Source: Acidobacteriota bacterium (lineage in GTDB: Bacteria > Acidobacteriota > Vicinamibacteria > Vicinamibacterales > UBA823). Taken from it: 51,404 nt of DNA. Below the pieces are notes generated by a model. The model had not been told where the DNA came from. It did no database searches and saw nothing but the letters and a program-made list of their open reading frames with translations. The stretch lies in assembly GCA_002730525.1 (NCBI GenBank), contig PCAK01000042.1, forward strand, positions 1 to 51,404, in the 5' to 3' direction. Positions 32,090-49,539 of the stretch are shown piece after piece. The first letter of the stretch is position 1. Every line of letters starts with the position of its first letter. The position numbers and the translations under genes were made by a program.

Positions 32090-33094
32090 ATGTCCGTGCC
32101 CGCGATCCGCACCGAAACGGTCGGCTCCTACCCGACCCCCGCCTGGCTGACGGCGATGCCGTCGCGCCCGGCGCTGCGCGACGCACTGCTCGTGGTGCTC
32201 AAGACCCAGGAACTCGCCGGTCTCGATGTCGTCGGCGACGGCGAACTGGCCCGCTTCGACGTGAATCATCCCGACACGAACGGGATGATCGAATTCTTCA
32301 TCCGCCCGCTGGGCGGCGTCGCCACCGACCTGACACCCGAGGAGCGCGCGGCGTTCCGCCAACAACCCGGGATGGGGTTTCGGAAGCGGCCCGCCGGCGT
32401 CGTTCGCGAACGGCTCGGCACCGGCACGCTCGACCTGCCGACGAGTTTCAGCCTGCTGCCCTCGTTGACCGGTCGCCCGCTCAAGTTCACAGTCACCTCG
32501 CCCTACATGCTGGCCAAGACATTGCTCGACCGGCACTACGGCGATCTGCGCGCGCTGTGTGCCGACCTGGCCGCAATTCTGGCCGACCAGGTTCGGGAGA
32601 TCGACGCGGCGGTGATCCAGGTGGACGAGGCCAACCTCACAGGGCACCCGGAAGACCGTGGCTGGGCCCACGAACCGATCAACACGGTGCTCGACGCGGC
32701 CTCGGGCAACACGGCCGTGCACCTCTGCTTCGGCAACTACGGCGGATCGACGATCCAGCACGGCACCTGGCGCGACCTCCTGCCGTTCCTGAACGCGCTC
32801 CACGCCGACCATCTGCTCCTTGAGTTCGCGCGCCGGGGCTACGACGAGCTGGATGTGCTGCGTGACCTCAGGCCGCAGATCACGCTGGGCGTCGGCGTGA
32901 TCGACATCAAGGACAACGAGGCCGAGACGCCGGAGATCGTGGCGGACCGGATTCAACGCGCCGCAGGAGTCCTCGGCCCCGACCGGATCCGCTGGGTCCA
33001 TCCTGATTGCGGATTCTGGATGCTGCCCCGCAGCGTGGCCGACCGGAAGATGGCGAGCCTCGTCAGGGGCCGCGACCTCTTCCTCGGACGCTAG
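32090..33094 (+). CDS. single-domain cobalamin-independent methionine synthase (MetE)-like protein
   Basis: A 334-residue protein matching only the C-terminal catalytic barrel of MetE. The zinc ligands are visible as His211 and Cys213 in VHLCFGN, Glu245 in LLLEFARRG and Cys307 in WVHPDCGF. Full MetE is about 750 residues with an N-terminal duplicated barrel, which is absent here. Such short proteins act as methyltransferases with other methyl donors in some bacteria, or have unknown roles. The TAG stop overlaps the stop of the convergent gene within the palindrome CTAG. It is cytoplasmic and monocistronic. Confidence 0.87.
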   Translation: MSVPAIRTETVGSYPTPAWLTAMPSRPALRDALLVVLKTQELAGLDVVGDGELARFDVNHPDTNGMIEFFIRPLGGVATDLTPEERAAFRQQPGMGFRKRPAGVVRERLGTGTLDLPTSFSLLPSLTGRPLKFTVTSPYMLAKTLLDRHYGDLRALCADLAAILADQVREIDAAVIQVDEANLTGHPEDRGWAHEPINTVLDAASGNTAVHLCFGNYGGSTIQHGTWRDLLPFLNALHADHLLLEFARRGYDELDVLRDLRPQITLGVGVIDIKDNEAETPEIVADRIQRAAGVLGPDRIRWVHPDCGFWMLPRSVADRKMASLVRGRDLFLGR

Positions 33095-35409
33095 AAGCCG
33101 TCCGTCACCTCGGCCGCCCTGCGCTCGATGTAGTGCGTGTCGATCCACGGATCATCGTCCAGATGCGCCCGCATCAACGCGATCCGCCGAGGCAGCAAGA
33201 CGTCGAAGTTGCGCCCGTGAATGAGCGGCGTCTCCTCCAGATCGGTCGTCGCCATGAACTCGACGCCCGAACCCACGAGGTCGAGCAGGTCTTCGCTGTT
33301 CGCGATCTCCCGGAGCATCATCTCCCGCAGCAGCGCTCGGCTGGCCCGCATCCCATCGCGGTCATGCGCGGCGCGGGCGGCCAGGAACCCGTGGACCCCG
33401 ACGACCCACGCGGCCACGCTGCGCTGGGTGCGCAGCCAGCACCGCAGGGCGCGGATCCGCACCCACTGGTCCTCGATGACGTTCATCGCACCCAGGGCCT
33501 GCCGCGCCGGTCCCCGCTCGGCCTCCAGCCGCGCGACCGCGCGATCGATCGGCGCCCAGACGTGGGCGTCGAACCGCTGCAGGTCTCGCCGACACGACGC
33601 CGGCGTCGTCAGTTGAAACAGGACGTCGCGGCTCAGGTCGACGTTGTTCGGGTTATGGGGGGTCGTGCACATGTAGGCCTGGTAGTACGCCCGCTCGGCC
33701 TCCGGAATCGCCTCGATGTTCGGCACGAAGGGACGCGTCCAGAGCCGATACCAGACGAACCCGTACATCGAGTACAGCGGCACGACGTTGGGGTACGCGA
33801 GGATCGCTTCCTCGGTCGCCTCCCAGGCGTCTAGCAGCGCGGGCGCCAGCCCCGGCCCAGCCCATCCGACCGCCAACCGCTCGGCTGCTCGATCGATATC
33901 GGCCTCAGGAGCAAACTGCAGCGTCGCGACCATCTCGTGATTCGGATCGAACGGCACGATGCCAGGCGGTGGTGTGCCGCCGACGTGCGCGATGTGCCTG
34001 ACACCGTTGGCATGCAGCAACTGCAGCCGGCGCCCGGTGAGCCTAGGGTACGGCACGCCCAGGAGCGGCGCGAAGATCGCATGAGGTCCGGCGGCGACAT
34101 AGAAGTCGGCGCGGACACCGCGCGCGCCGAGGTCGGCCAGCAACTCGCCCTCGCGGTCGTCGAAGCGGTCCTGATACACGGTGCCCGCGTTGACCGCGTG
34201 CGAGTCGGGATAGCGCCGGTGGGTGTAGGGCATCTCCCACCCCCGCCCCACGAGCGAGGCGCTCTCGACCTCGACGCCGTCCTCCAGCCCGGCCCAGATC
34301 GTGTCGTGCTCGCCATAGAACGACTCCATCCGGGTCAGCACCCGGAACGTAGGGTTCCGGGAGCGGCCGGCATCGCGCAGCGCGCGGAGGAACCGCAGCG
34401 CGTTCTCGCCGGCCGTCCGCGCGATGGCGGCGTCTTCGTTCCACTCGCGAATGAGGTAGGCGCCGCCGTTCCGGCCGACGTAGAGCGACTTCGTGTACTC
34501 GAACCCCGCCCCGCTGTCATTGGTCCAGATCGACAGGAAGCCGAGTTCCGGCACTTCGGCGAGCAGCCGGTCGACCATCTCCGCATAGTGTTCGAGGACC
34601 ACGGGGTGAGTGATCGTCATGTTGTAGCGCGGTTTGAAGCTGCGGAACGGGTGGTCGACCCGTGCGCCCCGAAGCATCGGGTGCTGTCTGAAGAACTCTT
34701 CGGGCACCGAACGCGGCTCGAAGCAGAACAATCCGGGCACGAGGCCGTGCCGCACGGCGTGCGCAGCGTTGGCCTTGAGGTTGGCGAGGTTGGCCGCCAG
34801 CCAGTCTTCGGGATACAGCCCGGCATTCAGTCGGCTGCTGACGAACTGGTCCAGCGCCGGCCCGTAGGTGTAGAACATCGGGTAGATCTCTCCGGGTGGG
34901 CCGGTTTCGAGCCCTGACGGCGCCGCCAATCCGTTCACCTCGACGTGGGTGAACCCGCGCGCGGCGAGACGCTCGATGTAGGCCGCCGGATCCCGGCCGT
35001 GCTGGATCCGCCCCTCCTGGGTCAGCACGAAATCGAACAGGCTCCGTTGCCATGCGAACGCAACAGGCCGTCGCTGCCCGTGCCGGTAGGTCTCCACTGG
35101 ATCGTCGCCGAGGCGCGTCACGAGGTTGACGGCGGCGCCGTAGAGGACCGAGGCCGACGTTGCGGCAAGCCCGCCCGATCCGTCCGCGTCGAGCTGGATC
35201 GTGACCGAGGGTGTTCGTTCGTCATTCGCCGCCACCCGCAGCGATACTCGAAAGACCCCTGGCTCGGCTCGAGCGGTGTCCGCGCTCGCCGTCACGACCT
35301 CCACGCCGACCTCGCTCGCGATCCGCGCCGCGGTCTGCGCGATCGCGGCCCCCGCCTCGGGGTCGATCCGCACCTCCGTCACTCGCGCCAGCGCCTGCGA
35401 AACGGTCAT
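33091..35409 (-). CDS. glycoside-hydrolase-like protein with hexosaminidase/glucuronidase-type layout
   Basis: The 772-residue cytoplasmic protein (no signal) has an N-terminal mixed alpha/beta domain (about 1-110) like the GH20b/alpha-glucuronidase N-terminal domain (TSASVLYGAAVNLVTRLG), then a probable TIM barrel from about 135 to 480. The stretch WTNDSGAGFEYTKSLY (295-310) has an acidic pair, Asp298 and Glu304, that may be catalytic. A helical C-terminal region follows. I do not recognise a numbered glycoside-hydrolase family. It is the last gene of the operon, and its ATG overlaps the preceding stop (ATGA). Role inferred: cleaving an imported glycan fragment. Confidence 0.7.
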   Translation of the reverse strand: MTVSQALARVTEVRIDPEAGAAIAQTAARIASEVGVEVVTASADTARAEPGVFRVSLRVAANDERTPSVTIQLDADGSGGLAATSASVLYGAAVNLVTRLGDDPVETYRHGQRRPVAFAWQRSLFDFVLTQEGRIQHGRDPAAYIERLAARGFTHVEVNGLAAPSGLETGPPGEIYPMFYTYGPALDQFVSSRLNAGLYPEDWLAANLANLKANAAHAVRHGLVPGLFCFEPRSVPEEFFRQHPMLRGARVDHPFRSFKPRYNMTITHPVVLEHYAEMVDRLLAEVPELGFLSIWTNDSGAGFEYTKSLYVGRNGGAYLIREWNEDAAIARTAGENALRFLRALRDAGRSRNPTFRVLTRMESFYGEHDTIWAGLEDGVEVESASLVGRGWEMPYTHRRYPDSHAVNAGTVYQDRFDDREGELLADLGARGVRADFYVAAGPHAIFAPLLGVPYPRLTGRRLQLLHANGVRHIAHVGGTPPPGIVPFDPNHEMVATLQFAPEADIDRAAERLAVGWAGPGLAPALLDAWEATEEAILAYPNVVPLYSMYGFVWYRLWTRPFVPNIEAIPEAERAYYQAYMCTTPHNPNNVDLSRDVLFQLTTPASCRRDLQRFDAHVWAPIDRAVARLEAERGPARQALGAMNVIEDQWVRIRALRCWLRTQRSVAAWVVGVHGFLAARAAHDRDGMRASRALLREMMLREIANSEDLLDLVGSGVEFMATTDLEETPLIHGRNFDVLLPRRIALMRAHLDDDPWIDTHYIERRAAEVTDGF

Positions 35410-37025
35410 GACACCGACGGCTCCGAGGCCAAGCCGACGACCACCGTGGCCTTCCCGGCCTCGTTCACCCCAAGATCCAGGTCCAGATAGGCGCTCGCGC
35501 CAACGAACCTCGTGTGATGAGGCATCGGACGCCCACCGGCCGTGACGCCGACCGCCGTCTGGCCTCCGGGCAGCAGCAGGTGCAGGCTCAGGTCGGCATC
35601 CGGCGGCGCCTCGACCTCGAGCGTGATCTGACTGGCGTCGGCCTGGTAGGTGTAGCCCGTCGCCGCGCCAGACGCGGCGTAGGCGATCCTGACCTCGACG
35701 CCGCCGATCCCCGCCGCCGCCCAGCGAGGCGACAGACGAATCCGGTCGAAGCCCCGGCCCTCGTCGGCGATCCCCGCCAATCCCTCCACCAGCGCGTACA
35801 GCATCGCCGACGATCCCCACCCGTCGGTCGGCTGGGCTTCGGGGCTGGTGCTCGCCTCGACGCTCGCCGGCCGGCCATCGGGAAAGTACCAGAGATAGCT
35901 GGCCTGCGACGCACCGACCAGGTCCCAGTACTGCTTGAGGATCTTCACGCCGTACGACTCGAAGCCATGCTCGAATGCGGCTCGGGCCAACTCACCGCCC
36001 ACCAGCGGCATGATGCCGCCGTTCACGTACGCGCCGCCCACCAGTTTGTCGTCACCGAAGATGCCGTCTGGAAACGGCGGGTCGATCGAGAACCACTCGG
36101 CGAACGCCGTGGTCGTCGCACGCCGCCGCCGGTATTCCTCGAGAATCGACACGGCCTGTGGTCGATCCGCCAGCCCGCGATTGATGTCGATCGGATTACT
36201 CAGGCTGAGCTGAGACGCTTCGTCGACACCGCCGATGCCGACCGGCGTTCGTTTCACGAAGTGCGTGTAGAAGGTGCCGTTCCAGCAGATGTCGTTGGCG
36301 CGCGCCTTGAGCCCCTCAGCTTGCCTCGCCCAATAGGTCGCTTGCTGCGAGTCGCCGACGTGCCCGTACAGCCTTCCGAGAATCTGGAACGCCTCGTAGT
36401 AGCCGCTGTTGTCGCCGTGCATGATGCCCCAGAACGTCTGATCGTCGATCTGGAACTGCAGCCAGTCGTGACACCCGGCGGTGTAGGCGAAGTCCCAGGT
36501 GTCAATGGTATAGGCCCGCTTGACGAGATCCAGCTCGGCGTCCCAGTACCAGGGATGGCGCATGATGTATCGCAGAGCCCGATCCATCGCTGGCAGGAGG
36601 CGCCGCAGCCAGTCGTCGTCGCCGGTCGCCTGCCAGGCCAGCCAGGCCGCCTTCACGAAGCGGTACTCGACGTCGGCCTCCACCGGCACCCGGACGTACT
36701 TCGTCCAGTTCTCTCGTTCGCACGGCTGCTTCTCAGGGAACGTCGTCACGTAGTCGAAGATCCGCCCGCTCGCCGACTGGGTCTCCGCGAAGTGCTCGAC
36801 GATGCTCGTCGGATCCGGATGAAAATAGCGGCCCGTCCGCAGCATGTCGCCGTGATCCCTGATCCAGATCGATCTGGCATCCGGTGTGCGGAAACCGCTC
36901 ACCCGGCGACCGTCGACCAGCAGCTCCATCACGTCCTGCTCGAGGAAACTCCGAACCGTCTCGAACAGCCCGTCGAACGCCGGATCGCCCGTCCGCAGGA
37001 AGGTCGACGAGCGCTCAGGGGGCAA
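35406..37025 (-). CDS. (alpha/alpha)6-barrel glycosidase-like protein
   Basis: A 539-residue protein from TTG 37025, with alternating helices of an (alpha/alpha)6 glycosidase (GH63/GH78/GH37-like). Telling segments are SIWIRDHGDMLRTGRYF near the N-terminus, ERENWTKYVRVPVEADVEYRF, NGGIMPLVGGELARAAF and PTDGWGSSAMLYALVEG. A beta-rich C-terminal domain (about 430-539) completes it. It is cytoplasmic. Candidate acids lie in IRDHGD and in the DGWGS region, but I cannot fix the pair. It overlaps the lyase gene by 11 bases; an ATG at 37073 would overlap it by 59 bases and encode an implausible N-terminus. Confidence 0.75.
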   Translation of the reverse strand: MPPERSSTFLRTGDPAFDGLFETVRSFLEQDVMELLVDGRRVSGFRTPDARSIWIRDHGDMLRTGRYFHPDPTSIVEHFAETQSASGRIFDYVTTFPEKQPCERENWTKYVRVPVEADVEYRFVKAAWLAWQATGDDDWLRRLLPAMDRALRYIMRHPWYWDAELDLVKRAYTIDTWDFAYTAGCHDWLQFQIDDQTFWGIMHGDNSGYYEAFQILGRLYGHVGDSQQATYWARQAEGLKARANDICWNGTFYTHFVKRTPVGIGGVDEASQLSLSNPIDINRGLADRPQAVSILEEYRRRRATTTAFAEWFSIDPPFPDGIFGDDKLVGGAYVNGGIMPLVGGELARAAFEHGFESYGVKILKQYWDLVGASQASYLWYFPDGRPASVEASTSPEAQPTDGWGSSAMLYALVEGLAGIADEGRGFDRIRLSPRWAAAGIGGVEVRIAYAASGAATGYTYQADASQITLEVEAPPDADLSLHLLLPGGQTAVGVTAGGRPMPHHTRFVGASAYLDLDLGVNEAGKATVVVGLASEPSVS

Positions 37026-39330
37026 GCTGCACCCGGTCGCGCCAGTAGCGCATCTTGCCGACGCCGCTGGCATCCTGGCTGCCGTCGAACGCGAGGTAGA
37101 AATACGAGGAACGGCCTTCGTACAACACTCGATCGCCGTAGGTGGCCCGGGTCAGGTTCGTGATCGTGTAGCTCAGCTCGTCGCCCTCGCGCGTGGCGAA
37201 GATGAAATCGCCGTTGGTCTCGATCTCGTCGAACACGAGGCGGCCCGCGTCGTAGGTGTAGCGCGGCCGGCGCCAGTCCCGCGCGACATCCATCCGCAGA
37301 TCCTGCTTGACTCCGATCGTGATCGTCTTGTCCCCAAACTCGATGGCCACGCCGAGCGCGGCGCCGGCCGGCGACGGCTCGATGAGGCGGACGCGTTCCA
37401 CCCAGGCCTCGGGCGAATCGTCGGCGTCGTGCGGCACGAGCACGGTGACGAAGCCCTCTGTCTCCCCCAGCTCGAAGTGATGCGCCGTCGTCTGGTGAAT
37501 CAGGAGCTCGTCCTGATAGTGACGGGTCTCCGTCTCGATGCCTTCGAGGCGATAGTGCGTGTCCGGGAAATGAATCAGCAGGCGGCGGTCCTGTGGCAGC
37601 TCTCGCACGCCGATCCGGTCGTAGCCGGTGTCGTACCAGTGGTCCCCCTGAGCCAGGATCTGACGCGTGTGCCACAGGTTGGCGATCGTGAAGTACTCCT
37701 CCACTCGCGACTTCACGATGTCGAAGACCACGAACACCTCGGGATCCTTGACGTACGCAATAACGCGGTCCCACTCGAATCCCCACCCGTCGTCGATCAT
37801 CCGGGTCCGGCTGTAGTCGATGTCGGGTAGGGTGAGGAAGTCGACCTTCTGCGTCCGCACCCGTCGGTAGGACCCGGCGTTGTGCAGGAACTCCAGAATC
37901 GGCTGGCCGGGCACCGCGTCCGGCGTGTCGAGCCGCGCCTCTCCGGCCTCCTGCCCCATCCAGATCTTCTCGGGTCGCACCGCGAGACGATTGTGAAAGT
38001 AGTCTTGCCGGTAGGCACCGAACGGCCCGCTCGGCATGTAGTCGCGATAGCCGCCGTCGTGCAGCAAGACCGACCCGCCCGACATGAGCAGCGTGAGGCT
38101 GTTCTCGTCGGCGTGGCCGTGGGTCATCTTCTCCTCCTCGACCGGAATCGTGTCGCGGAGGTAGTCCCGAAAATTGAGTCCGCCGTCGCCCTCGTCACGG
38201 TAGTTCAACAGCAGGTAGGTCGAATCCGCCTGCCAACCGTCGCGGAAGACGATCTTCTTACCCTGCACATCCTCCATCACCTCGGCCGACAGCGTCTCCG
38301 GAACTTCGGGCGTGAGTCCGTCCCGCCCCCAGCGATGGCAGTCCAAAAGAAAGTAGCCGAGGCCCACGTTGGTGGCGTCGTCGAAGTCGACGAACCGTTC
38401 CGCGATGACGCTGGCGGCCCATTCCAGCTGCGGGTCGTCGTAGGCCGCGGCCGCCGCCTCGAAGAAGACGAGGTAGTGCTGCCAGTTCGACAACCAGTTT
38501 GCGTCACCGAAGTCGGGCACCATCCCCATCGGTGCCATCAAGTTGAGGAAGTACTGCGCGTAGTAGTAGATCTCGGGTGTCCGAAACAGCGCGGGCAGAC
38601 GATCCGTGACGTCGGCGTGTCCCATCAAGGCGTACAGCCAGACGCCGTGGTAGATCGTGGCGTCCTCGATCTCCCAGTTGCCCCAGTTGTCGGAGGCCAG
38701 TGCGCGGTCCTGCATCCGCCAGACGTCGGCTCGTGGGTGATCGGGCAGCGCGCGAGCGGCCCAGGCCAGCGACTCGGCTCTGAGCATCGTCCGATTCATC
38801 GTGCCCCATTCGACCGTCCGGAGCAGATACTCCATGCTGTGGGCGATCAGTTCGCGAGCAGCGGTGACCTCACCGGCCGACAGCTGGTCGAGGCGGTCGA
38901 GCGCCTCGAACGCCTTGATGTAGCGCATCACCGTGAAGAAATCTGGCAGGGCGGGCACGCCGTCGGCGTAGTCGGGCCGCCGTTCGATCGCAGACTGGGG
39001 ATACTGGGTGCGGTAACCGCCGTACTCCACGACAACCCGCTTGGCGCGCTCGGCGTACACCGCCTCGCCTTCCGTTTCGAACAGGTAGGCGTAGATCACC
39101 GCCATCTCGAGCAGGCGGCCTGGCGGCCGGTAGCCAAAGATGCTGTCCGGATCGAACCGTTCGCGCCACTGCGCGATCAGATTGTCGTGATTGTCCCAGG
39201 TCCAGTCGGCGGTGCTGCGCGCGTACTCCAGGTAGGCCGACTGCGGCACCTGCGCCTCGGACGAGGGCGCCCCGCCGACGAGGAGGGCGCCCAGCAACAC
39301 CATCGTGACCATCCGTCCACTCAGAGACAT
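37015..39330 (-). CDS. secreted heparinase II/III-family polysaccharide lyase-like protein
   Basis: A 771-residue protein with a Sec signal peptide (cleavage near SSEAQVP). Residues about 25-350 form the helical (alpha/alpha) toroid and about 370-700 the beta-sandwich domain of heparinase II/III-like lyases. The family's HGHADENS motif is present near residue 402, followed by LLHDGGYRDY. Such enzymes cut uronic-acid-containing polysaccharides (heparin, alginate or similar) by beta-elimination. It is the only exported enzyme of the operon, so it should act first. The target polysaccharide is unknown. It lies 38 bases after the transporter gene. Confidence 0.85.
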   Translation of the reverse strand: MSLSGRMVTMVLLGALLVGGAPSSEAQVPQSAYLEYARSTADWTWDNHDNLIAQWRERFDPDSIFGYRPPGRLLEMAVIYAYLFETEGEAVYAERAKRVVVEYGGYRTQYPQSAIERRPDYADGVPALPDFFTVMRYIKAFEALDRLDQLSAGEVTAARELIAHSMEYLLRTVEWGTMNRTMLRAESLAWAARALPDHPRADVWRMQDRALASDNWGNWEIEDATIYHGVWLYALMGHADVTDRLPALFRTPEIYYYAQYFLNLMAPMGMVPDFGDANWLSNWQHYLVFFEAAAAAYDDPQLEWAASVIAERFVDFDDATNVGLGYFLLDCHRWGRDGLTPEVPETLSAEVMEDVQGKKIVFRDGWQADSTYLLLNYRDEGDGGLNFRDYLRDTIPVEEEKMTHGHADENSLTLLMSGGSVLLHDGGYRDYMPSGPFGAYRQDYFHNRLAVRPEKIWMGQEAGEARLDTPDAVPGQPILEFLHNAGSYRRVRTQKVDFLTLPDIDYSRTRMIDDGWGFEWDRVIAYVKDPEVFVVFDIVKSRVEEYFTIANLWHTRQILAQGDHWYDTGYDRIGVRELPQDRRLLIHFPDTHYRLEGIETETRHYQDELLIHQTTAHHFELGETEGFVTVLVPHDADDSPEAWVERVRLIEPSPAGAALGVAIEFGDKTITIGVKQDLRMDVARDWRRPRYTYDAGRLVFDEIETNGDFIFATREGDELSYTITNLTRATYGDRVLYEGRSSYFYLAFDGSQDASGVGKMRYWRDRVQLAP

Positions 39331-39368
39331 CGTCCTCGCTCCTATTCGCGCGCCACCGTGCGGCGCGC

Positions 39369-41468
39369 TCACCGGATGTTCACCATGAGCCAGAGCAGCA
39401 GCACGACCACGCCCACCAGGACCCAGCTGCCGCCAAAGCCGAGATAGTCGATCCGGCCCGGTTTCATCACCTCCCAGGCCGATCCCGGGAAGATCTTGTC
39501 GTCCTCGAACCTGCGTGGGTCCGCGTAGGCCCCCTCCAACGCGGCTGCGTCCAGCGCCGCTGTCGGCTGCACCGGCGTGCGGAGCTTCGCAAAGAAGCGT
39601 TCGACCGCCGCCGGCGCCACCGGCGCCGTCAACGCGCTGAAGAGGAACAACAGCACGAACGGGAACAGCGCGTCGAAGAAGAACCGCAACGCGACCAGCC
39701 ACGATCGGGATGTCTCTCGAAAGTCGAAGCCAAACCAGCTCAACACCCAGATCTCGGCGTTGAACCGGCCGAGTCCGACGCGCGGCGACGCCGGGTCAGC
39801 CGGATTCTCGCGTGCCACCTGATCGAAGAAAATCGCCGCCGGCGGAACCTCGCGGACACGGGCGATCGACTCCCCGACGCGCAACGCGCGGCCCGCCGCG
39901 ACGTCGGTGGCCAGCGCCGGCTCGTCCACCTCGATCGTCTGCGCCCGGGTCATCGCCAGGAAGCCTGGGTCGTGCCGCGACCAGTCCATCGCCGCGAACA
40001 GGTTCGGAATGATGGCATAGATCGCGACACAGATCACCACCTGCAGCATGACGGCCATTCGCGTCAGGCCACGCCAGATGAACCCCAGCCAGATCGACGC
40101 GCCGAAGATGGCCGGAATCGAAATGAAATAGCGGAACAGCTCCAGCAGATCGTTCACGAACACCGCAACCAGCACGCCGCCAGCCAACGTCAGGGGAATC
40201 ACCAGCCGACCAATCATCAGGTAGTGCGCTTCAGTACGGCCCGGCCGAAGCGGTTCGTACAGGTTGCGGATGAAGAGTGCCGAATACGACACCGACGTAG
40301 CGTCGAGCGTCGACATGTTCGCGGCCAGAACGCCGACCATCATCAGGCCGATCGCGCCGGGGGCGAGTAGGTCCCGGGTCATGTAGCCCCAGATCAGGTC
40401 GGGGTCGTGCAGGTCTCCGGCATAGAGTCCGATCGCGAGCAAGCCGGCCAGCGCCCAGAACAGCATGATGAACCGCTTGAAGAACATCCCGCCGATCATC
40501 CCGAGCCTGGCCGTCATCTCGTCACGCGCCGAGCCGGCGGTCTGCATGCCGGTGGCCACGGCGATGATCGACACCAGGTTCGCCAGGATCATGGCGACAA
40601 TGGTGGGCCCCCCGTAGTCGCTGAGCGCGGCAGATCCGAACAGATCGAACATGAAATCCGGAACTGTCGCGTGCAGGCCGGCGAACCCGCCGATCCGCGA
40701 CAGACCGATCGGGATCAGGATCAGCGAGAACAGGACGATGAGGGCGCCCTGGATAGCGTCGGTCACCGCCGCGGCCCGGAACCCGCCGAGCATCGTGTAG
40801 ACGCTGACGACCAGCGCGAAGACGATGTAGAAGACCAGTGGGTCGGTATGGGAGGCGAACGAGACGAGCTGGCCGAGCTTGTTCCGCTCGTTCAGTTCTT
40901 CCCATCGTCCGCGTTCGGCCGTCGTCAGACCCGACTCCAGCCGGTCGCTGAGCTCCCGGAACTCGCGAAACGCCAGCACCTGCTCCCGCTCGTCCGCGGT
41001 CCATTCGGCCTCGACCTTCGGCGTAACGGCCATGAAGGTCTTGCCGGCCACCATGAAGCCGGCACCGCCGCCCACGATCGACACCAGCAGGATGAAGATC
41101 GCGAACGCCCCCCCGAGACACGGACTTTGGAACCGCTCCGTGAAGTAGTCGCCGATCGTCGTCAGCCGCACCCGGCGGAAGAACAGGGTCTGGAACCAGT
41201 AGAACGGCGTGATGAAGAGGACCAGGTACTGGATCCACATCCCGCCGATGCCCTGGCGGTAGATCTCCCGAGAGACCGCCACGGCTTGATCCGCGTTCGT
41301 CGAGGTGCCGAAGTTGAGAAAGAACTGGTAGAAGCCGCCCAGCCGGCGACCGGCCAGGAAGAATTCGTTGCGATTCTGGGTCCGCGCGCCGACGCGGTGG
41401 CCGATCCAGAGGATGAGCACCAGGTACCCGAGCAGGATCGCCGCATCGAGCGGGTGAAGACCGAGCAT
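39369..41468 (-). CDS. sodium:solute symporter (SSS family) with large soluble insertions
   Basis: A 699-residue membrane protein with the SSS fold: NEFFLAGRRLGGF near residue 34, then many hydrophobic helices and VYTMLGGFRAAAVTDAIQG (about 223-241). It is longer than usual because of a charged insertion at about 150-208 and a soluble stretch at about 480-590 before the last helices. By family it would import a sugar, uronate or similar solute with sodium. It lies in the operon between the oxidoreductase gene (2 bases away) and the secreted lyase, so it likely imports the lyase product. Confidence 0.9.
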   Translation of the reverse strand: MLGLHPLDAAILLGYLVLILWIGHRVGARTQNRNEFFLAGRRLGGFYQFFLNFGTSTNADQAVAVSREIYRQGIGGMWIQYLVLFITPFYWFQTLFFRRVRLTTIGDYFTERFQSPCLGGAFAIFILLVSIVGGGAGFMVAGKTFMAVTPKVEAEWTADEREQVLAFREFRELSDRLESGLTTAERGRWEELNERNKLGQLVSFASHTDPLVFYIVFALVVSVYTMLGGFRAAAVTDAIQGALIVLFSLILIPIGLSRIGGFAGLHATVPDFMFDLFGSAALSDYGGPTIVAMILANLVSIIAVATGMQTAGSARDEMTARLGMIGGMFFKRFIMLFWALAGLLAIGLYAGDLHDPDLIWGYMTRDLLAPGAIGLMMVGVLAANMSTLDATSVSYSALFIRNLYEPLRPGRTEAHYLMIGRLVIPLTLAGGVLVAVFVNDLLELFRYFISIPAIFGASIWLGFIWRGLTRMAVMLQVVICVAIYAIIPNLFAAMDWSRHDPGFLAMTRAQTIEVDEPALATDVAAGRALRVGESIARVREVPPAAIFFDQVARENPADPASPRVGLGRFNAEIWVLSWFGFDFRETSRSWLVALRFFFDALFPFVLLFLFSALTAPVAPAAVERFFAKLRTPVQPTAALDAAALEGAYADPRRFEDDKIFPGSAWEVMKPGRIDYLGFGGSWVLVGVVVLLLWLMVNIR

Positions 41469-41470
41469 GC

Positions 41471-42709
41471 TCAGGCTCCATCCTCGAACGACGGAAACCG
41501 GTCGTACGACGAGAGATCGATCGTGCGCCCAGGAATCGACCAGGACACGCCGGCCGCGGACGGCAGGACGGCACGCTCGTAGCACCGGAGCAGGTCCGCG
41601 TCGAGACCTTCAATCCAGTACCGGTCGGGCTCGGTCGCCCGCCGCCGGATCCCCGTGGGCACCGTCGTCACGTCGGGCACAGACTCGTGGACCCCATCGA
41701 CGCACAGGGTCTGCGCCGACGCGGCCTCGGGGCCGCACACCACCGGCGCGCCGGTCGTCACCGCATCGAGGGCTTCCTCGAGCTTCACGAACTGATCGCT
41801 CGCCTCGGGCGAGGGATAGATCGCCACACGCTGGGAGTCGGCGTCGGCCGCAATCTCTCCGACCTCGTCGGCGCCGGGCATCGCGAAATGGACACGCGCC
41901 TCCTCGAACTCCAGCTCGAACCTCGGACCGTAGCTCTCACGTGAAGCGTGCGATCCGTAGAAGAGCACTTCGACGCCGGCGGCGGTCAGCGCGCGGCAGG
42001 CCACCGTGTCGAAACTCTCGATGCCGTTCGCACGGCAGGCCTCGGCCGTCACCTCAACCGGCATCGCGCTGGACGCCGTCTCCGGACCGAGCAGAAAGAA
42101 GAGGTTGTGGAGGAAGTGCGCCTGGGCGTTGTTCAGCGGGCTGTCCAGAACCCAGCCCCCGGTCACCGGATCGCGCAGCCGGCCGGCCCAGTCGTTTCGT
42201 CGGTAGTACGAGAGGGTACGCGGCCAGAGACAGATCGTCTTCGCTCGCTTCGGCGCACCGAAACGGCCCGCCTGAATATCTCGCTTGAGCGCGAGGATCC
42301 CCTCGGCATACGACCACTGATACCCGATCCGCACCGAGCGGCCCGCCGCGTCACGCGCGCGGATCAAGCGGCTCACGTCCTGGATTCTCGCCCCGAGCGG
42401 CTTGTCGCAGAGCACATGGCGCCCGTGCTGTAGGGCGACGACGCTCTGGGGGACATGATGGTGAATCGGCGAGGCGATGATCACCAGATCGGCCGCGGCG
42501 CCAGCGTCGAACAGTGCCTCGAGTGTCGGAAAGACCGGCGTGTCGCCGTCGGCAAGTTCGCGGGCGGCCCGCGACTGTCTCGGCGCCGGGTCGACCGCGG
42601 CCGTCAACTCGACCGTGGCCACCTGCTGTCGGCGCAGCGCCGCCAGGTACTCGGTGCCGTAGCCCCCGACGCCGACCAGGACGACCTTGACGACCTCGGG
42701 CGCGGTCAC
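41471..42709 (-). CDS. Gfo/Idh/MocA-family NAD(P)-dependent oxidoreductase (second)
   Basis: A 412-residue cytoplasmic oxidoreductase with the N-terminal Rossmann motif GVGGYG (13-18) and the family's cofactor/catalytic segment CDKPLGA in place of the usual EKP. The C-terminal alpha/beta domain carries the substrate site. The start is GTG, overlapping the TGA of the preceding gene (GTGA). It likely oxidises a hydroxyl of a sugar or inositol derivative. It shares a fold, but not close similarity, with the first-gene oxidoreductase at 45686. Confidence 0.88.
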   Translation of the reverse strand: MTAPEVVKVVLVGVGGYGTEYLAALRRQQVATVELTAAVDPAPRQSRAARELADGDTPVFPTLEALFDAGAAADLVIIASPIHHHVPQSVVALQHGRHVLCDKPLGARIQDVSRLIRARDAAGRSVRIGYQWSYAEGILALKRDIQAGRFGAPKRAKTICLWPRTLSYYRRNDWAGRLRDPVTGGWVLDSPLNNAQAHFLHNLFFLLGPETASSAMPVEVTAEACRANGIESFDTVACRALTAAGVEVLFYGSHASRESYGPRFELEFEEARVHFAMPGADEVGEIAADADSQRVAIYPSPEASDQFVKLEEALDAVTTGAPVVCGPEAASAQTLCVDGVHESVPDVTTVPTGIRRRATEPDRYWIEGLDADLLRCYERAVLPSAAGVSWSIPGRTIDLSSYDRFPSFEDGA

Positions 42710-43722
42710 GCCGCCTCCACCGATGCCACGATGGCGCGAAGCGCCGCGAGGTTCCGGATCATGCGCGCCTCGCAGATCTCCGGCCAGCGGTCACGATCGG
42801 TCGCCACACAGCCGGCCCGCTCGGCTTGGCGCGCCAGCAGCTCGAGCGCCGCGCGTTCATCGGCCGTCAGGTCCGGAAACTCCGCGAGAAACCGAGGGTC
42901 GCCGACCGGCAGCCGGATCACCCCGCCGTGATCCTCGATCGAGAGATGAATCGTCCGGCCGGACGCCGCCACGCGGCTGATGACGCCGGACAGATCGACG
43001 ATGCCTTCACCCACGGCGGTCGGGAACGTTTCCAGGTCGTCTTGCGCTGTGCGCAGCGCCCCGTCCTTGACGTGTGTCCCGACGACCCAGGGCAGAATCC
43101 GGTCCGTCGCGCGCACCGGATCCTCGAGCATCGTCAAGACGTTCATCGTGTCGAGTACCACGCCGATCCAGTCGTCGGGCTCCGCCTCGCACATCTCGAA
43201 CAACCGCAGCAGTTCGTGGGTCGTGAACTCGAAGTGCAGCTCGATCGCCAGGACGACGCCGTGATCGCGCAGCATCTCGCGCTGGGCGACCAGAGCGCCG
43301 GCGGTGTCGCGAAGCAGTGTCTCGGTCTGCGGCGCCGCGGCGTCCCATCGCATCAGCCCGCCCGAGCACGAGCGCAGGATGCGCGCGCCCAGCCGCGCGG
43401 CCTCCGCCGCCACCGCGCGGTTCGTCTCGAAGAGATCGCGCCAGGCCCAGGTCGTCATGTCCCGCGGGATGTGCCCGGCCCCGCCCCACTCGAGATAGAG
43501 CCCAGCGCCCTCCGCCATCACGCGCAGATCGTCGAGACACGCCGCGTCGATCCCCGCGCGCCATTCGGCTTCGAGGCCGGAGAACTGCACACCGTCTGCG
43601 CCGTGGTCGATCGCCCACCGCAGAAGCGCCTGCGGCGAGAGCCCGAGCGGACCCAGGCCGTACTGGTCGATACCGACGGCAAGCGCACCCGGGCGACCCG
43701 CATCGGGGCGACTAGACGGCAC
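42706..43722 (-). CDS. sugar phosphate isomerase/epimerase-like TIM barrel (second)
   Basis: A 338-residue xylose isomerase-like TIM-barrel protein. Metal or substrate segments are visible as AIELHFEF, GVVLDTMNV, GTHVKDGAL and HLSIEDHGG, in the order expected for this fold. The GTG at 43722 is used because the frame just before it overlaps the previous gene, giving an 11-base overlap. It is probably a cytoplasmic isomerase, epimerase or lyase acting on the oxidised sugar. It differs strongly from its upstream neighbour, which has the same fold. Confidence 0.85.
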   Translation of the reverse strand: MPSSRPDAGRPGALAVGIDQYGLGPLGLSPQALLRWAIDHGADGVQFSGLEAEWRAGIDAACLDDLRVMAEGAGLYLEWGGAGHIPRDMTTWAWRDLFETNRAVAAEAARLGARILRSCSGGLMRWDAAAPQTETLLRDTAGALVAQREMLRDHGVVLAIELHFEFTTHELLRLFEMCEAEPDDWIGVVLDTMNVLTMLEDPVRATDRILPWVVGTHVKDGALRTAQDDLETFPTAVGEGIVDLSGVISRVAASGRTIHLSIEDHGGVIRLPVGDPRFLAEFPDLTADERAALELLARQAERAGCVATDRDRWPEICEARMIRNLAALRAIVASVEAA

Positions 43723-44542
43723 GCGCGTATCTCTCGACGCAGACGCGCAGGACCTCGTCGGGGTCCCGGCGCCACCAGTTCTTCTCCGAGAAGATCTCGA
43801 TTTCGCAGCACCCGTCGTAGCCGGCGGCCTCGACCATCCCGCGCAGCCGGCGCAGGTCGATGACACCGTCGCCCGGCATCCCACGGTCCTCCAGGAGGTC
43901 TTCGGTCGGCTGGAGCCAGTCGCAGACGTGGTAGGCCAGGATCCGGCCCGCCGCACCAGCCCGGGCGATCTGCACCTCGAGTTCCGGATCCCACCAGACG
44001 TGATACGTGTCGATCGCGAGACCGACGTCCGGACCGAGCGCCTCGCACAGATCGAGCGCCTGGCGCATCGTGTTGATACAGCCTCGGTCGGCGGCGTACA
44101 TCGGATGCAGCGGCTCGATCGCGAGTCGCACCGCTCGAGCACGCGCGTGCTCTCCGAGCGCGGCGATTCCGTCCGCGACACGCCGGCGAGCGTCGGCCAG
44201 ATCCCGCGTGCCCTCGACGAGACCGCCGACGACCAGCACCAGACACTCGGCACCGACGGCCGCGGCCTCGTCGACCGCCAACCGATTGTCGTCAAGATTG
44301 AGGGCGTCGTTGGCCGTGAAGAACCCGCCACGGCAGAGCGACGACACGCGTAGACCGTGGTCGCGGATCCGCGACACCGCCTCGGGCACGCCCAGCGCCT
44401 GCAGCTGGTCGCGCCAGGGCGCGATGGCGCGGACCCCGTGCCGTGCGCAGCCCGCGATCGCCTCACCCAGGCCCCACCGCTTCCGGACCGTCGCCGTGTT
44501 CAGCGACAGCCGCGCCGGATCGGGCGATGTCTGGCCCGTCAC
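43712..44542 (-). CDS. sugar phosphate isomerase/epimerase-like TIM barrel (first)
   Basis: A 276-residue xylose isomerase-like TIM barrel with RLAIEPLHPMY, LAIDTYHVWWD, LAYHVCDW and CEIEIFSE as likely metal-binding segments. The GTG at 44542 overlaps the TGA of the DUF993 gene (GTGA), so translation is coupled. Like its neighbour it should act in the cytoplasm on a sugar intermediate. Pairs of such barrels beside Gfo/Idh enzymes are known from inositol and 3-keto-glycoside routes; the exact reaction here is unknown. Confidence 0.85.
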   Translation of the reverse strand: MTGQTSPDPARLSLNTATVRKRWGLGEAIAGCARHGVRAIAPWRDQLQALGVPEAVSRIRDHGLRVSSLCRGGFFTANDALNLDDNRLAVDEAAAVGAECLVLVVGGLVEGTRDLADARRRVADGIAALGEHARARAVRLAIEPLHPMYAADRGCINTMRQALDLCEALGPDVGLAIDTYHVWWDPELEVQIARAGAAGRILAYHVCDWLQPTEDLLEDRGMPGDGVIDLRRLRGMVEAAGYDGCCEIEIFSEKNWWRRDPDEVLRVCVERYARAV

Positions 44543-45684
44543 GCCACGATTCCCTGCGTTCGACAGAACGTCTGCATCCGATCGGCGGCCATGGCGGGAT
44601 CGCGTAGCAGACCGGCCGCGGCGGCCAGTCTGAATACCTCGGCCAGATGTGACGGTGATCGCTCGGACTCTTGCCCTCCGAGCATCGCAAAGTGGTCCTG
44701 GTGCCCATTCAGCCAGGCCATGAACACCACGCCCGTCTTGTAGAACCGGGTCGGCGCGCCGAAGACATGACGGCTGAACGGAACGCACGGCGCGAGGATC
44801 GCGTCGAACCGGCCGCGTCGACCGACCGCCAGTTCGTGCAACGCCGCGCCGGCCGCCGGCGCCATGGCATCGAAGATCCCGAGCAACGCATCGGAATGCC
44901 CCACGGCATCGCCGCCGATCAACTCCGCGAAGTCGAAGTCGTCGCCGGTGTACATCCGGACGCCGTCGGGTAGCCGGCGCCGCATCGCGATCTCCTTCGA
45001 CTTGTCGAGTAACGAGATCTTGATGCCCTCGACGCGCTTCGCGTGGGCCTGGATGAGGGACACCGCCACCTCCATCGCGGCGTCGATGTCGTCAGCCCCC
45101 CAGTAGCCCGCCAGCGCCTGATCGAACATCGGACCGAGCCAGTGGATGATGACCCGCTCCCGCGCCTGGCCCAGCAGGCGATCGTAGACAGCGAGATAGT
45201 CGTCCGGCGACCGCGCCGCACTCGCGAGGGCCCGGCTGGCCATGAGGATAACCCGGCCGTCGTGCGCCTCGACGTAGGCCATCTGCTCCTCGTAGGCTGC
45301 CACCACGTCGTCGAGGGTGACGTCGGGGCCCGGCGCCAGTTGATCGGTGCCGCAGCCGGATGCTACCAGCGCCTCCGGCCTGGTGCGCGCGGCCTCGAGG
45401 GTCCGGCGGATCAACTCGCGCGCCTGCGGCCAGGAGAGCCCCGCGCCACGCTGCGCCGTGTCCATCGCCTCGGCAACTCCCAGCCGACAGTCCCAGAGAT
45501 GCTCGCGGATCTTGAGCGTCGCGTCCCAGTCGATGGCGGTCGGATGGGCCGGCCGGCCGACGACGTGGGCCGCCGCGTACGCCACGCGATTCCTCGACAT
45601 CCCCGCCGGCTCCACCGGCGCGACATCAGGCCAGGTGAACGGCTGGAGGCCGCCATCCGCGGTCGGCAAGGTGATCACCGGCAT
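44539..45684 (-). CDS. DUF993-family protein (dihydrodipicolinate synthase-like barrel)
   Basis: The 381-residue protein matches DUF993 along its whole length, with recognisable blocks such as AYAAAHVVGRPAHPTAIDWDAT (read in parts), GISLLDKSKEIAMRRRLPDGVRMYTGDDFDF and ALLGIFDAMAPAA. The family is uncharacterised but related to class I aldolase barrels of the dihydrodipicolinate synthase type. The Lys residues in LLDKSKE are candidates for a Schiff-base lysine. It starts one base after the stop of the first oxidoreductase gene. A retro-aldol or dehydratase step is inferred. Confidence 0.85.
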   Translation of the reverse strand: MPVITLPTADGGLQPFTWPDVAPVEPAGMSRNRVAYAAAHVVGRPAHPTAIDWDATLKIREHLWDCRLGVAEAMDTAQRGAGLSWPQARELIRRTLEAARTRPEALVASGCGTDQLAPGPDVTLDDVVAAYEEQMAYVEAHDGRVILMASRALASAARSPDDYLAVYDRLLGQARERVIIHWLGPMFDQALAGYWGADDIDAAMEVAVSLIQAHAKRVEGIKISLLDKSKEIAMRRRLPDGVRMYTGDDFDFAELIGGDAVGHSDALLGIFDAMAPAAGAALHELAVGRRGRFDAILAPCVPFSRHVFGAPTRFYKTGVVFMAWLNGHQDHFAMLGGQESERSPSHLAEVFRLAAAAGLLRDPAMAADRMQTFCRTQGIVA

Positions 45685-45685
45685 C

Positions 45686-46834
45686 TCACGGCCCGTTCCG
45701 ATCGAGATCCACCCATGCGCGCCGGCGCGAGCTCTCGAGCGCGGCTTCGGCCAGCTCCACCCCCTTGACGCCCTCCCGCAGCGTGTAGGGCCAAGGCACG
45801 GCATCGTAGAGATGGCGGATGAACTGCTCCCACTGGGCGCGGAAGCCGTTCGGATACGTGCCGTCTGGATCGTAGGGCGTCCACTGGTCACGAAACACCG
45901 CAGCCTGCGGCTCGTCGGGGTTCCATACCGGGCGCGGCGTGTCGACGAGCGACTGCGTCCGACACCAGGTCAGACCGGCCACCGCTGACCCCTCGGTGCC
46001 GTCGATCTGAAAGATCGCCAGATCGTCGCGGTTGACCCGCGTGCACCAGCTGCTGTTGACCTGCGCGACGATGCCACCGTCGAGCTGCAACAGGGCATAG
46101 GCGGCGTCATCCGCGTCGGCGGCATACCGGGCGCCGGCCTCGTCCCACCGCTCCTGGACGTGAGTCGCCCCCAGGCAGACGACCGAGCGAATCGGCGCGA
46201 CGAGACGGTCGAGCACGTAGCGCCAGTGCGCCATCATATCGAAGATGATTCCACCGCCATCTCGCTTCCGATAGTTCCAGCTCGGCCGATTACTCGGCGC
46301 CCCCTCACCGGTGAACACCCAGTATCCAAAGTCGATGCGCACCGACAGGATGCGGCCGAAGAATCCCTCCGACACCAGCGCGGCAAGCTTGATGAGGCCC
46401 GGCAGGAACAGCTTGTCCATGACGACACCGGCTTTCACGCCCGCGCGCTCCGCCTGCGCGGCCACCATTCGGGCATCCGCCAGCGACGCCGCCACCGGCT
46501 TCTCGCAGTAGAGGTGCTTCCCGGCTGCGATGGCGCGGGCGAGGAGGTCTGGACGCATCAGCGTCGTGGCCGCGTCGAAGAACAGCGCGTGCTCTGACGA
46601 GCCGATCGCCGCGTCGTAGTCGGTGGTGTACGCGTCTCCCGTCTCGGCCCCGATCGCCGCCAGCTTGGACTCGTCGCGGCCCAGGAGCAGCGGGTCGGGC
46701 ATCACCCGGTCGCCGTTCCCCAGCACCACGCCGCCGTCCGCGCGCAGCGCCGCGATCGACCGGCGAAGGTGCTGGTTCAGACCCATCCGGCCGGTCACAC
46801 CATGCATGACGATGCCCAATCGGTGTGTCGCCAT
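45686..46834 (-). CDS. Gfo/Idh/MocA-family NAD(P)-dependent oxidoreductase (first gene of operon)
   Basis: A 382-residue oxidoreductase with an N-terminal nucleotide-binding region (LGIVMHGVTGRMG) whose glycine pattern is a variant of the usual GxGxxG, and the conserved EKPVAAS segment with the family's catalytic lysine. The C-terminal domain includes YRKRDGGGIIFDMMAHW, typical of the family's dimer sheet. It opens the nine-gene operon. A TATAGT box on the minus strand ends 7 bases before its ATG, so the operon mRNA may be leaderless. Confidence 0.87.
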   Translation of the reverse strand: MATHRLGIVMHGVTGRMGLNQHLRRSIAALRADGGVVLGNGDRVMPDPLLLGRDESKLAAIGAETGDAYTTDYDAAIGSSEHALFFDAATTLMRPDLLARAIAAGKHLYCEKPVAASLADARMVAAQAERAGVKAGVVMDKLFLPGLIKLAALVSEGFFGRILSVRIDFGYWVFTGEGAPSNRPSWNYRKRDGGGIIFDMMAHWRYVLDRLVAPIRSVVCLGATHVQERWDEAGARYAADADDAAYALLQLDGGIVAQVNSSWCTRVNRDDLAIFQIDGTEGSAVAGLTWCRTQSLVDTPRPVWNPDEPQAAVFRDQWTPYDPDGTYPNGFRAQWEQFIRHLYDAVPWPYTLREGVKGVELAEAALESSRRRAWVDLDRNGP

Positions 46835-48049: not shown

Positions 48050-49510
48050 ATGACCGTTCGGACACCTCGTTCCCTCCGCCGCCTCGCCGTCGGCGTCGTG
48101 ATCGCCTCGGTGGCCGGTGTCGCGCCACTGGCGCTGCCGTCTCCGGCGCACGCGCAGACGCCGATCATCGTCCAGACCAACGCCGCGGGGGACAACATTC
48201 ACCTGATCGATCCGAGCACCAACACGATCGTCGGGGAGATCTCCGGCATCGAGGTCAACCACGGCGCGACCTCGGCGCCTGACGGCAGCCGCTTCTACAT
48301 CACGAACGAGGTCGACCATACGCTCGACGTGGTCGACGCGCGGACGCTGGAGATCACGCACCAGGTGCCGCTCAGCGGCCGGCCCAACAACGTCGCCATC
48401 CGCGCCGATGGCCGGCGCGTCTATGTCGCCATCGTCTCGGCGCCCGGCGCCGTCGATGTCATCGACACCCGGTCGATGGAACTCGTCAAGAGCGTCCGGA
48501 CGGCCGGCGGCGTGCACAACACCTTCATCACGCCCGACAGCAAGCACGTCGTCGCCGGTTCGATCGCCGGGCGCAACCTCACGGTCATCGACGCCGAGAC
48601 CGAGGAGGCGCTCTGGACGCTCTTCTTCGACGCCGGTGTTCGACCTTTGTCGTTCGAGACCAACCCGAATGGCTCGACCCGCCGGGTCTTCGTGCAGCTA
48701 TCAGATTTCCACGGCTTTGCCATTGTGGATTTCGAGGAGCGCCGGGAGGTCGGGGGCCGGATCGAGCTGCCCGAGCTGCCGGAGGCCGAGCAGCATACCG
48801 AGTTCCTCCAGGGCTCGCCGTCGCACGGTCAGGGCGTGACCCCCGACGGCACAATGCTCTGGCTCTGTAGCAAGGTGAACAGCTACGTCTACGCCTACTC
48901 GCTGCCCGATCTGAAGTACGTGGGCGGCGTGCACGTCGGCAGCCATCCGGACTGGCTGACGTTCTCGCCCGACAGCCGCTACGTCTACGTGGCCAACGCC
49001 GGGTCGAACTCGACCTCGGTCGTCGACACGCAGACGCTCGAAGAGGTCGTCCAGATTCCGGTCGGCCAGGTCCCGAAGCGGGTGGTCACGGCGATCGTGC
49101 CGGACGTGACGGTCGCCGGCTGGAACGCCGCCGCGCCCGGATCGCGACTGTCGAGTACGCGTGACGCGCTCGACTTCGACTTCTTCCAGAAGGAGGTCCA
49201 GCCGATCTTCGTCCGGAAGCGAGAGGGCGCCGCCCGGTGCGTCGTCTGCCACTCGACCCGTACCGCGTTTCGACTGCAGCCGCTGCCACCGGAAGGCGCC
49301 ACCTGGAACCCCGAGCAGACACGACGGAACTTTCAGACGGCGCGGCGGATGGTCGCGCCGGGCGACCCGGACGCCAGCCGGCTGTTGCTGCTGCCGCTGG
49401 CCGAGGACGCCGGCGGCAATTCGTTCCACCCAGGCGGCAAGCACTGGACGTCGAAGACCGACCCCGAGTGGCAGGCAATCGCGACCTGGATCAGAGGAAG
49501 TCGACACTGA
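48050..49510 (+). CDS. secreted YVTN beta-propeller fused to a c-type cytochrome domain
   Basis: A 486-residue protein with a Sec signal (cleavage near AHAQTP). Residues about 40-350 form a seven-bladed YVTN/YncE-like propeller with repeats such as VDVIDTRSMELV and TSVVDTQTLEEV. Residues about 370-486 form a small heme domain with the CVVCH motif (Cys397, Cys400, His401) and the RMVAPGDPDASRLLL layout of planctomycete-type cytochrome c domains. It may bind a substrate or partner and pass electrons. The sulfatase gene starts at its stop (TGATG overlap), so both are probably co-expressed. Confidence 0.85.
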   Translation: MTVRTPRSLRRLAVGVVIASVAGVAPLALPSPAHAQTPIIVQTNAAGDNIHLIDPSTNTIVGEISGIEVNHGATSAPDGSRFYITNEVDHTLDVVDARTLEITHQVPLSGRPNNVAIRADGRRVYVAIVSAPGAVDVIDTRSMELVKSVRTAGGVHNTFITPDSKHVVAGSIAGRNLTVIDAETEEALWTLFFDAGVRPLSFETNPNGSTRRVFVQLSDFHGFAIVDFEERREVGGRIELPELPEAEQHTEFLQGSPSHGQGVTPDGTMLWLCSKVNSYVYAYSLPDLKYVGGVHVGSHPDWLTFSPDSRYVYVANAGSNSTSVVDTQTLEEVVQIPVGQVPKRVVTAIVPDVTVAGWNAAAPGSRLSSTRDALDFDFFQKEVQPIFVRKREGAARCVVCHSTRTAFRLQPLPPEGATWNPEQTRRNFQTARRMVAPGDPDASRLLLLPLAEDAGGNSFHPGGKHWTSKTDPEWQAIATWIRGSRH

Positions 49511-49539
49511 TGACTGAGGGACAACGACAGGTTCACATC

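Follow-up and report, generated by a model that had tools for sequence, protein, structure and literature searches.

The nine-gene operon analysed here combines two gene sets, each of which also recurs without the other, and it is better described as their fusion than as the single nine-gene pathway that an earlier note on the same DNA had proposed. The first set, module A, consists of GfoA, DUF993 and TIM1; the second, module B, consists of TIM2, GfoB, an SSS symporter, HepL, GHa and GHb. The reading that we prefer, to which we give an even chance, is that this is a composite saccharolytic operon in which module A replaces the KduI/KduD/KDPG aldolase back end of uronate catabolism and DUF993 performs the cleaving step. 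The host is an uncultivated acidobacterium; the window, that is, the whole stretch of DNA that was analysed (51,404 nucleotides), is taken from one contig of its genome of 3.31 Mb with a completeness of 99.2%.

Structure of the operon

All nine open reading frames lie on the minus strand at positions 33091-46834; no gap exceeds 38 bases and the overlaps are 4 or 11 bases long, so that the near-contiguous arrangement described in the earlier note is borne out by the coordinates. The first gene, GfoA (45686..46834), encodes a Gfo/Idh/MocA oxidoreductase that matches PF22725 (75 bits), PF02894 (58) and PF01408 (29) and contains EKP and D-x3-H motifs. It is followed, after a gap of 1 base, by DUF993 (44539..45684), a DHDPS-like barrel and proposed Schiff-base aldolase, which overlaps by 4 bases with TIM1 (43712..44542), a sugar isomerase/epimerase of the AP_endonuc_2 type (PF01261, 131 bits). 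TIM1 in turn overlaps by 11 bases with TIM2 (42706..43722), a divergent AP_endonuc_2 barrel (PF01261, 54 bits) for which no close solved relative was found, and TIM2 overlaps by 4 bases with GfoB (41471..42709), the second Gfo/Idh oxidoreductase (PF01408, 70 bits). A gap of 2 bases separates GfoB from the SSS-family sodium:solute symporter (39369..41468; PF00474, 65 bits). The largest gap, 38 bases, lies between the symporter and HepL (37015..39330), a predicted exported polysaccharide lyase of the heparinase fold; alternatively, this junction is a 4-base overlap if the GTG at 39372 is used. The start codon of GHa (35406..37025), an (alpha/alpha)6-type glycosidase-like protein, is uncertain: it overlaps HepL by 11 bases with a TTG start, or by 59 bases if translation begins at the ATG at 37073. 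Finally, GHa overlaps by 4 bases with GHb (33091..35409), a uronidase-like TIM-barrel protein. By eye, neither GHa nor GHb has a leader.

The symporter, both Gfo/Idh proteins, both AP_endonuc_2 barrels and DUF993 all pass their Pfam cut-offs. For HepL, GHa and GHb, no Pfam or NCBIfam family scored above its cut-off. A consensus scan upstream of GfoA detected no sigma-70-like promoter.

Two neighbouring genes should be mentioned. A gene for a MetE-like core methyltransferase (32090..33094, plus strand; PF01717, 76 bits), with the zinc-site motifs H-x-C, E and C, is convergent with GHb and overlaps it by 4 bases. Its membership in the system is uncertain; wherever the operon occurs among the family genomes (four cases), this gene is conserved next to it, and in HepL loci of other bacteria URO-D proteins, which have a similar fold, occupy a comparable place. 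Upstream of the operon and divergent from it is a sulfatase-like gene with a C-x-P-S-R motif (about 49510-50976 of the window, plus strand). Sulfatase-like genes are present in HepL locus L096, too, and such neighbours could mean that the glycan is sulfated.

Conservation and modular composition

Co-occurrence of the gene set in relatives, which had been proposed beforehand as a check, was confirmed: three relatives belonging to the genus or family of the host contain all nine genes in identical order and orientation, with protein identities of 65-93%. Such conservation might also be expected of neighbouring genes that share no pathway and are linked only through recent common descent, and indeed the flanking MetE-like, DLH and PfpI-like genes are partly conserved in these relatives as well. 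We consider this explanation very improbable, because start and stop codons overlap at most junctions, the gene order is intact though the proteins have diverged to 65-75%, and HepL, GHa, GHb and GfoB recur jointly across phyla.

Outside the family of the host, the operon splits into two separately recurring modules: GfoA-DUF993-TIM1 occurs as a unit without GfoB and TIM2, and GfoB and TIM2 accompany HepL without GfoA and TIM1. The genes of module B are found in varied combinations in Vicinamibacterales (L051, which is the same as L059, and L052, the same as L073), in Bacteroidales (L065) and in locus L056, where they are accompanied by GH38, a weakly GH78-like protein, URO-D, ROK or a class V aminotransferase. 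TIM2 is present in L065 and L073, and GfoB adjoins HepL in seven loci (L051, L052, L056, L072, L080, L081 and L103), in one of which, L056, a symporter copy with 69% identity also adjoins HepL. Six loci of Aminicenantes or of other acidobacteria have HepL and a relative of GHb side by side. Their pairing persists at 25-31% identity in a gut clostridium, Subdoligranulum, a plasmid of which carries HepL beside a 25% identical GHb together with GH38, GH88, GH2, URO-D-like and ROK-like genes. GH88 is found in HepL locus L054, and the loci of two bacteria (L103 and L081) begin with a KDPG-aldolase/PfkB fusion.

These neighbours of module B, namely GH38, GH88, URO-D, ROK and the KDPG-aldolase/PfkB fusion, point to uronic-acid glycans as the target. 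Standard uronate genes (GH88 and the fusion) are present in HepL loci elsewhere where the family of the host has module A. The ties to uronate/mannose glycans come from the relatives of module B only; module A occurs in unrelated bacteria as a general back end. A glucuronomannan-like substrate, suggested by GH38 beside HepL in other bacteria, was considered and set aside, since GH38 was not found in the family of the host; for the same reason, the glycan degraded in this family may differ from that of other HepL loci. A literature search for "glucuronomannan lyase" found no papers.

Search for the standard uronate route

The standard route for unsaturated uronates consists of a lyase, GH88/105, KduI, KduD, KDG kinase and KDPG aldolase, among which KduD and KDG kinase belong to the broad SDR and PfkB families. 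The presence of the more specific families was examined by family profile searches of nine genomes of the host's family, five of which are 61-85% complete and four 91-99% complete; the results from the more complete four agree. The KDPG/KHG aldolase family (PF01081) was matched in 0 of the 9 family genomes and in 8 of 14 control genomes. KduI (PF04962) was searched for in the host genome only and gave no match there. GH88/105 (PF07470) was represented in the host genome by three adjacent fragments in three frames, with a leader (contig C31, 42665-43695), and was absent from the other eight family genomes. This frame-disrupted GH88/105-like gene is either a pseudogene or the product of assembly errors. 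The earlier note had reported the standard genes to be missing from the window and had named standard genes elsewhere in the genome, if shown to handle the lyase products, as a point against its proposal; when the search is extended beyond the window, neither KduI nor KDPG aldolase is found in the host genome, and the single GH88/105 copy is not intact. On the other hand, at least one DHDPS-family protein (PF00701) occurs in each family genome searched, which leaves room for a non-phosphorylative KDG aldolase.

HepL and the glycosidase-like proteins

The N-terminus of HepL contains a hydrophobic leader. The heparinase II/III-like label originally given to this protein is suggested by its fold match and residues and not by its Pfam score: against Hepar_II_III_C it reaches only 15.7 bits (E 0.011), under the cut-off of 24, and a clostridial relative reaches 18 bits against the same cut-off. 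A structure model of low confidence (6-row alignment, mean pLDDT 49) was compared using Foldseek and placed PL39 (E 7.7e-8) and PL17 (E 1.9e-4) at the top. The matches at E <= 0.001 were confined to alginate lyases with a heparinase-like fold (PL39 Dp0100, PL17 Alg17c and the ALW1 enzyme), and PL33, PL12 and PL15 followed with weaker matches. In addition, N179, Y227, H404, H406, H446 and N447 are invariant across 16 HepL relatives, down to 30% identity. Judging from the weak fold match and the invariant N, Y and H residues together, HepL is probably a secreted heparinase-fold lyase.

In Aminicenantes loci (among L057-L106), HepL homologues are located beside genes for peptidase C69, DUF6305, DUF6599 and M14 peptidase, not sugar genes, and these homologues may have another role. 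Because many Aminicenantes HepL genes adjoin peptidase or unrelated genes, HepL by itself is no proof of a uronate pathway.

Of the two proteins that the earlier note called glycosidase-like, GHa agrees weakly with that label, matching MGH1-like_GH of Pfam at an E-value of 0.0005, below the cut-off, and exo-beta-D-arabinofuranosidase 8ic6 weakly; GHb has no match at all in Pfam or NCBIfam. The low-confidence model of GHb (7-row alignment, mean pLDDT 51) is closest to GH138 (E 2.2e-6), which acts on the pectin rhamnogalacturonan II; weaker matches are GH67 glucuronidase, GH84 and GH20. The model matches of HepL and GHb are taken as hints only. By comparison with these two databases, HepL, GHa and GHb look like clades of carbohydrate-active enzymes without an assigned Pfam or NCBIfam family.

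DUF993 as an aldolase-like protein

DUF993 aligns with all 382 positions of PF06187 and scores 551 bits, against a cut-off of 24. This is the only family that it matches at E-values up to 1, and the PF00701 model is not among its matches. Compared at the profile level with an alignment of 18 DHDPS members, however, DUF993 gives a probability of 83.7 (pairwise E 8e-6), and K222 aligns with K161, the Schiff-base lysine of DHDPS. Across 14 DUF993 sequences, among them a distant type (f49), no variation is seen at K222, H181, W182, D75, T76, Q78 and R79. The profile match and the lysine in register support the aldolase-like step suggested before. In contrast, H181 occupies the position of the catalytic tyrosine of DHDPS, and D75-T-A-Q-R79 that of its carboxylate-binding GTTGE loop; the loss of these two elements makes a pyruvate-forming cleavage of the KDG type doubtful. 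DUF993 likely catalyses a reaction of the class I aldolase type, the substrate of which need not be a 2-keto-3-deoxy acid.

The distant f49 type (L031-L033, L035 and others) has about 34-37% identity and is found in 11 genomes of one genus, in several of which the matched stretch contains one in-frame TGA.

By score, the orthologues of DUF993 and TIM1 are the PDB entries 4DNH (486 bits) and 3JU2 (358 bits), respectively, both solved and uncharacterised. The latter entry names S. meliloti SMc04130; the former we take to be SMc04132 of the same organism. No paper naming DUF993 was found in the literature searched, and SMc04132 and SMc04133 are listed in the gene table of a study of PhaR (PMC12542648).

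Module A outside the family

Module A is carried by alphaproteobacteria, actinobacteria and other acidobacteria, and nearby genes often encode transporters of the sugar-acid type or glycerate kinase. GfoA, DUF993 and TIM1 occur together in 8 of 16 plasmid loci (L042, L043, L049, L050, L142, L143, L144 and L147), with one gene inserted within the set in L144. They are more loosely grouped in L148 and are clustered in four acidobacterial genomes (G107, G036, G147 and G195). Five further plasmid loci (L044, L046, L048, L146 and L047, the S. meliloti pSymA locus) have DUF993-TIM1 with an SDR in the place of GfoA, flanked by acyl-CoA dehydrogenase and CoA-transferase and often with a GMC oxidoreductase; this context appears to be a separate pathway. 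Locus L045 (pAO1) contains GfoA-DUF993 and glycerate kinase without TIM1, and L145 contains DUF993 and glycerate kinase. In total, 6 of the 16 plasmid loci have glycerate kinase in the vicinity of DUF993, which fits a C3 product. In a DUF993 tree, the backbone of which is open, the acidobacterial sequences of family f17 are placed among actinobacteria (88/86) and apart from the group of the host, so that horizontal spread of DUF993 is likely. The tree includes a frame-broken sequence of P. silvicola, to whose branch no meaning attaches.

Since module A is present in bacteria without HepL, it may act on a substrate that has nothing to do with uronate. If so, module A would process some other sugar, such as a neutral sugar or an aldonate released from the same glycan, and uronate would be degraded by genes elsewhere in the genome that encode the standard route in an unrecognised form. 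The varied transporters, without a lyase, that accompany module A in alphaproteobacteria and actinobacteria are consistent with this, as are the absence from DUF993 of the loop and the tyrosine typical of pyruvate-type aldolases and the occurrence of PF00701 proteins in every relative searched. We nevertheless regard it as rather unlikely, because the profile searches found neither KDPG/KHG aldolase in the nine family genomes nor KduI in the host genome, and because all four copies of the lyase operon in the family genomes include module A.

Proposed pathway

For the composite operon that we prefer, we infer the substrate, the order of the steps and every activity as follows. HepL would be exported and would cleave a uronic-acid polysaccharide by beta-elimination, and the SSS symporter would take up the resulting oligosaccharides. 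In the cytoplasm, the uronidase-like GHb and GHa, with GfoB and TIM2, would convert these into monomers, GHa or GHb standing in for GH88/105. A uronate-derived keto-sugar acid would then enter module A, where GfoA would carry out a redox step and TIM1 an isomerisation, and DUF993 would perform a Schiff-base retro-aldol cleavage, probably to three-carbon units. Module A would thereby act in place of both KduI/KduD and KDG kinase/KDPG aldolase. The general outline given in the earlier note, a uronate or glycan operon with a predicted lyase outside, import, and processing in the cytoplasm, is supported at the level of predicted function.

A different assignment of the oxidoreductases and barrels is suggested by the Lgd set, which comprises four enzymes with one dehydrogenase, one reductase and two intermediate steps (PMC7676230). 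Two Gfo/Idh and two AP_endonuc_2 proteins match the gene types of this set, and in NCBIfam there is a weak resemblance to levoglucosan dehydrogenase and to glycoside 3-dehydrogenases. In an oxidative deglycosylation of this kind, the Gfo/Idh and barrel pairs would oxidise, beta-eliminate, hydrate and re-reduce a glycoside, and DUF993 would act on a side product. However, the levoglucosan dehydrogenase equivalog scores only 58.5 bits with GfoA and 28.2 bits with GfoB, against a cut-off of 650. Moreover, GfoA/TIM1 and GfoB/TIM2 belong to separate modules, and since these move separately, the four proteins do not make one Lgd-type set. We think it quite improbable that the operon works in this way.

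Returning to the composite operon, a broader proposal can be put forward tentatively: DUF993 may constitute a new Schiff-base aldolase family, and GfoA-DUF993-TIM1 an undescribed non-phosphorylative module for keto-sugar acids, widespread in soil bacteria, that replaced KduI/KduD/KDPG aldolase in the family of the host. The operon offers a testable function for DUF993 (structure 4DNH) and its partner isomerase (3JU2), both of which are encoded behind a predicted uronate lyase in genomes that gave no match to the usual aldolase. If the proposal is true, there is another lower half of uronate catabolism, and annotators could recognise degraders of acidic glycans that do not have KDPG aldolase.

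Comparison with known systems

With the standard unsaturated-uronate route, the operon shares a predicted exported lyase, import, cytoplasmic hydrolases and enzymes for redox, isomerisation and cleavage steps. It differs in having two Gfo/Idh proteins, two AP_endonuc_2 barrels and DUF993, whereas KduI, KDPG aldolase and intact GH88/105 were not found in the searches described above; elsewhere, relatives of HepL are associated with GH88 and the KDPG-aldolase/PfkB fusion. With the lyases of PL17, PL39, PL12, PL15 and PL33, which act on alginate or are related to alginate lyases, HepL appears from its low-confidence model to share the architecture of an alpha/alpha toroid and a beta-sheet, and it may share the conserved N, Y and H, but identity in the aligned models is only about 11-15%, and its match to Hepar_II_III_C is below the cut-off.

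DUF993 resembles the class I aldolases of the DHDPS/NAL type (PF00701) in its barrel and in a Schiff-base lysine in register, but it has H181 instead of the tyrosine and D75-TAQR instead of GTTGE, and it does not match PF00701. The S. meliloti proteins of 3JU2 and 4DNH are orthologues of TIM1 and DUF993; unlike the operon of the host, they are not linked with a lyase or glycosidase in the loci examined. As in the levoglucosan Lgd pathway, there are two Gfo/Idh proteins and two AP_endonuc_2 barrels, although the sequence match is weak; the published four-enzyme set includes neither a lyase nor a DUF993 protein.
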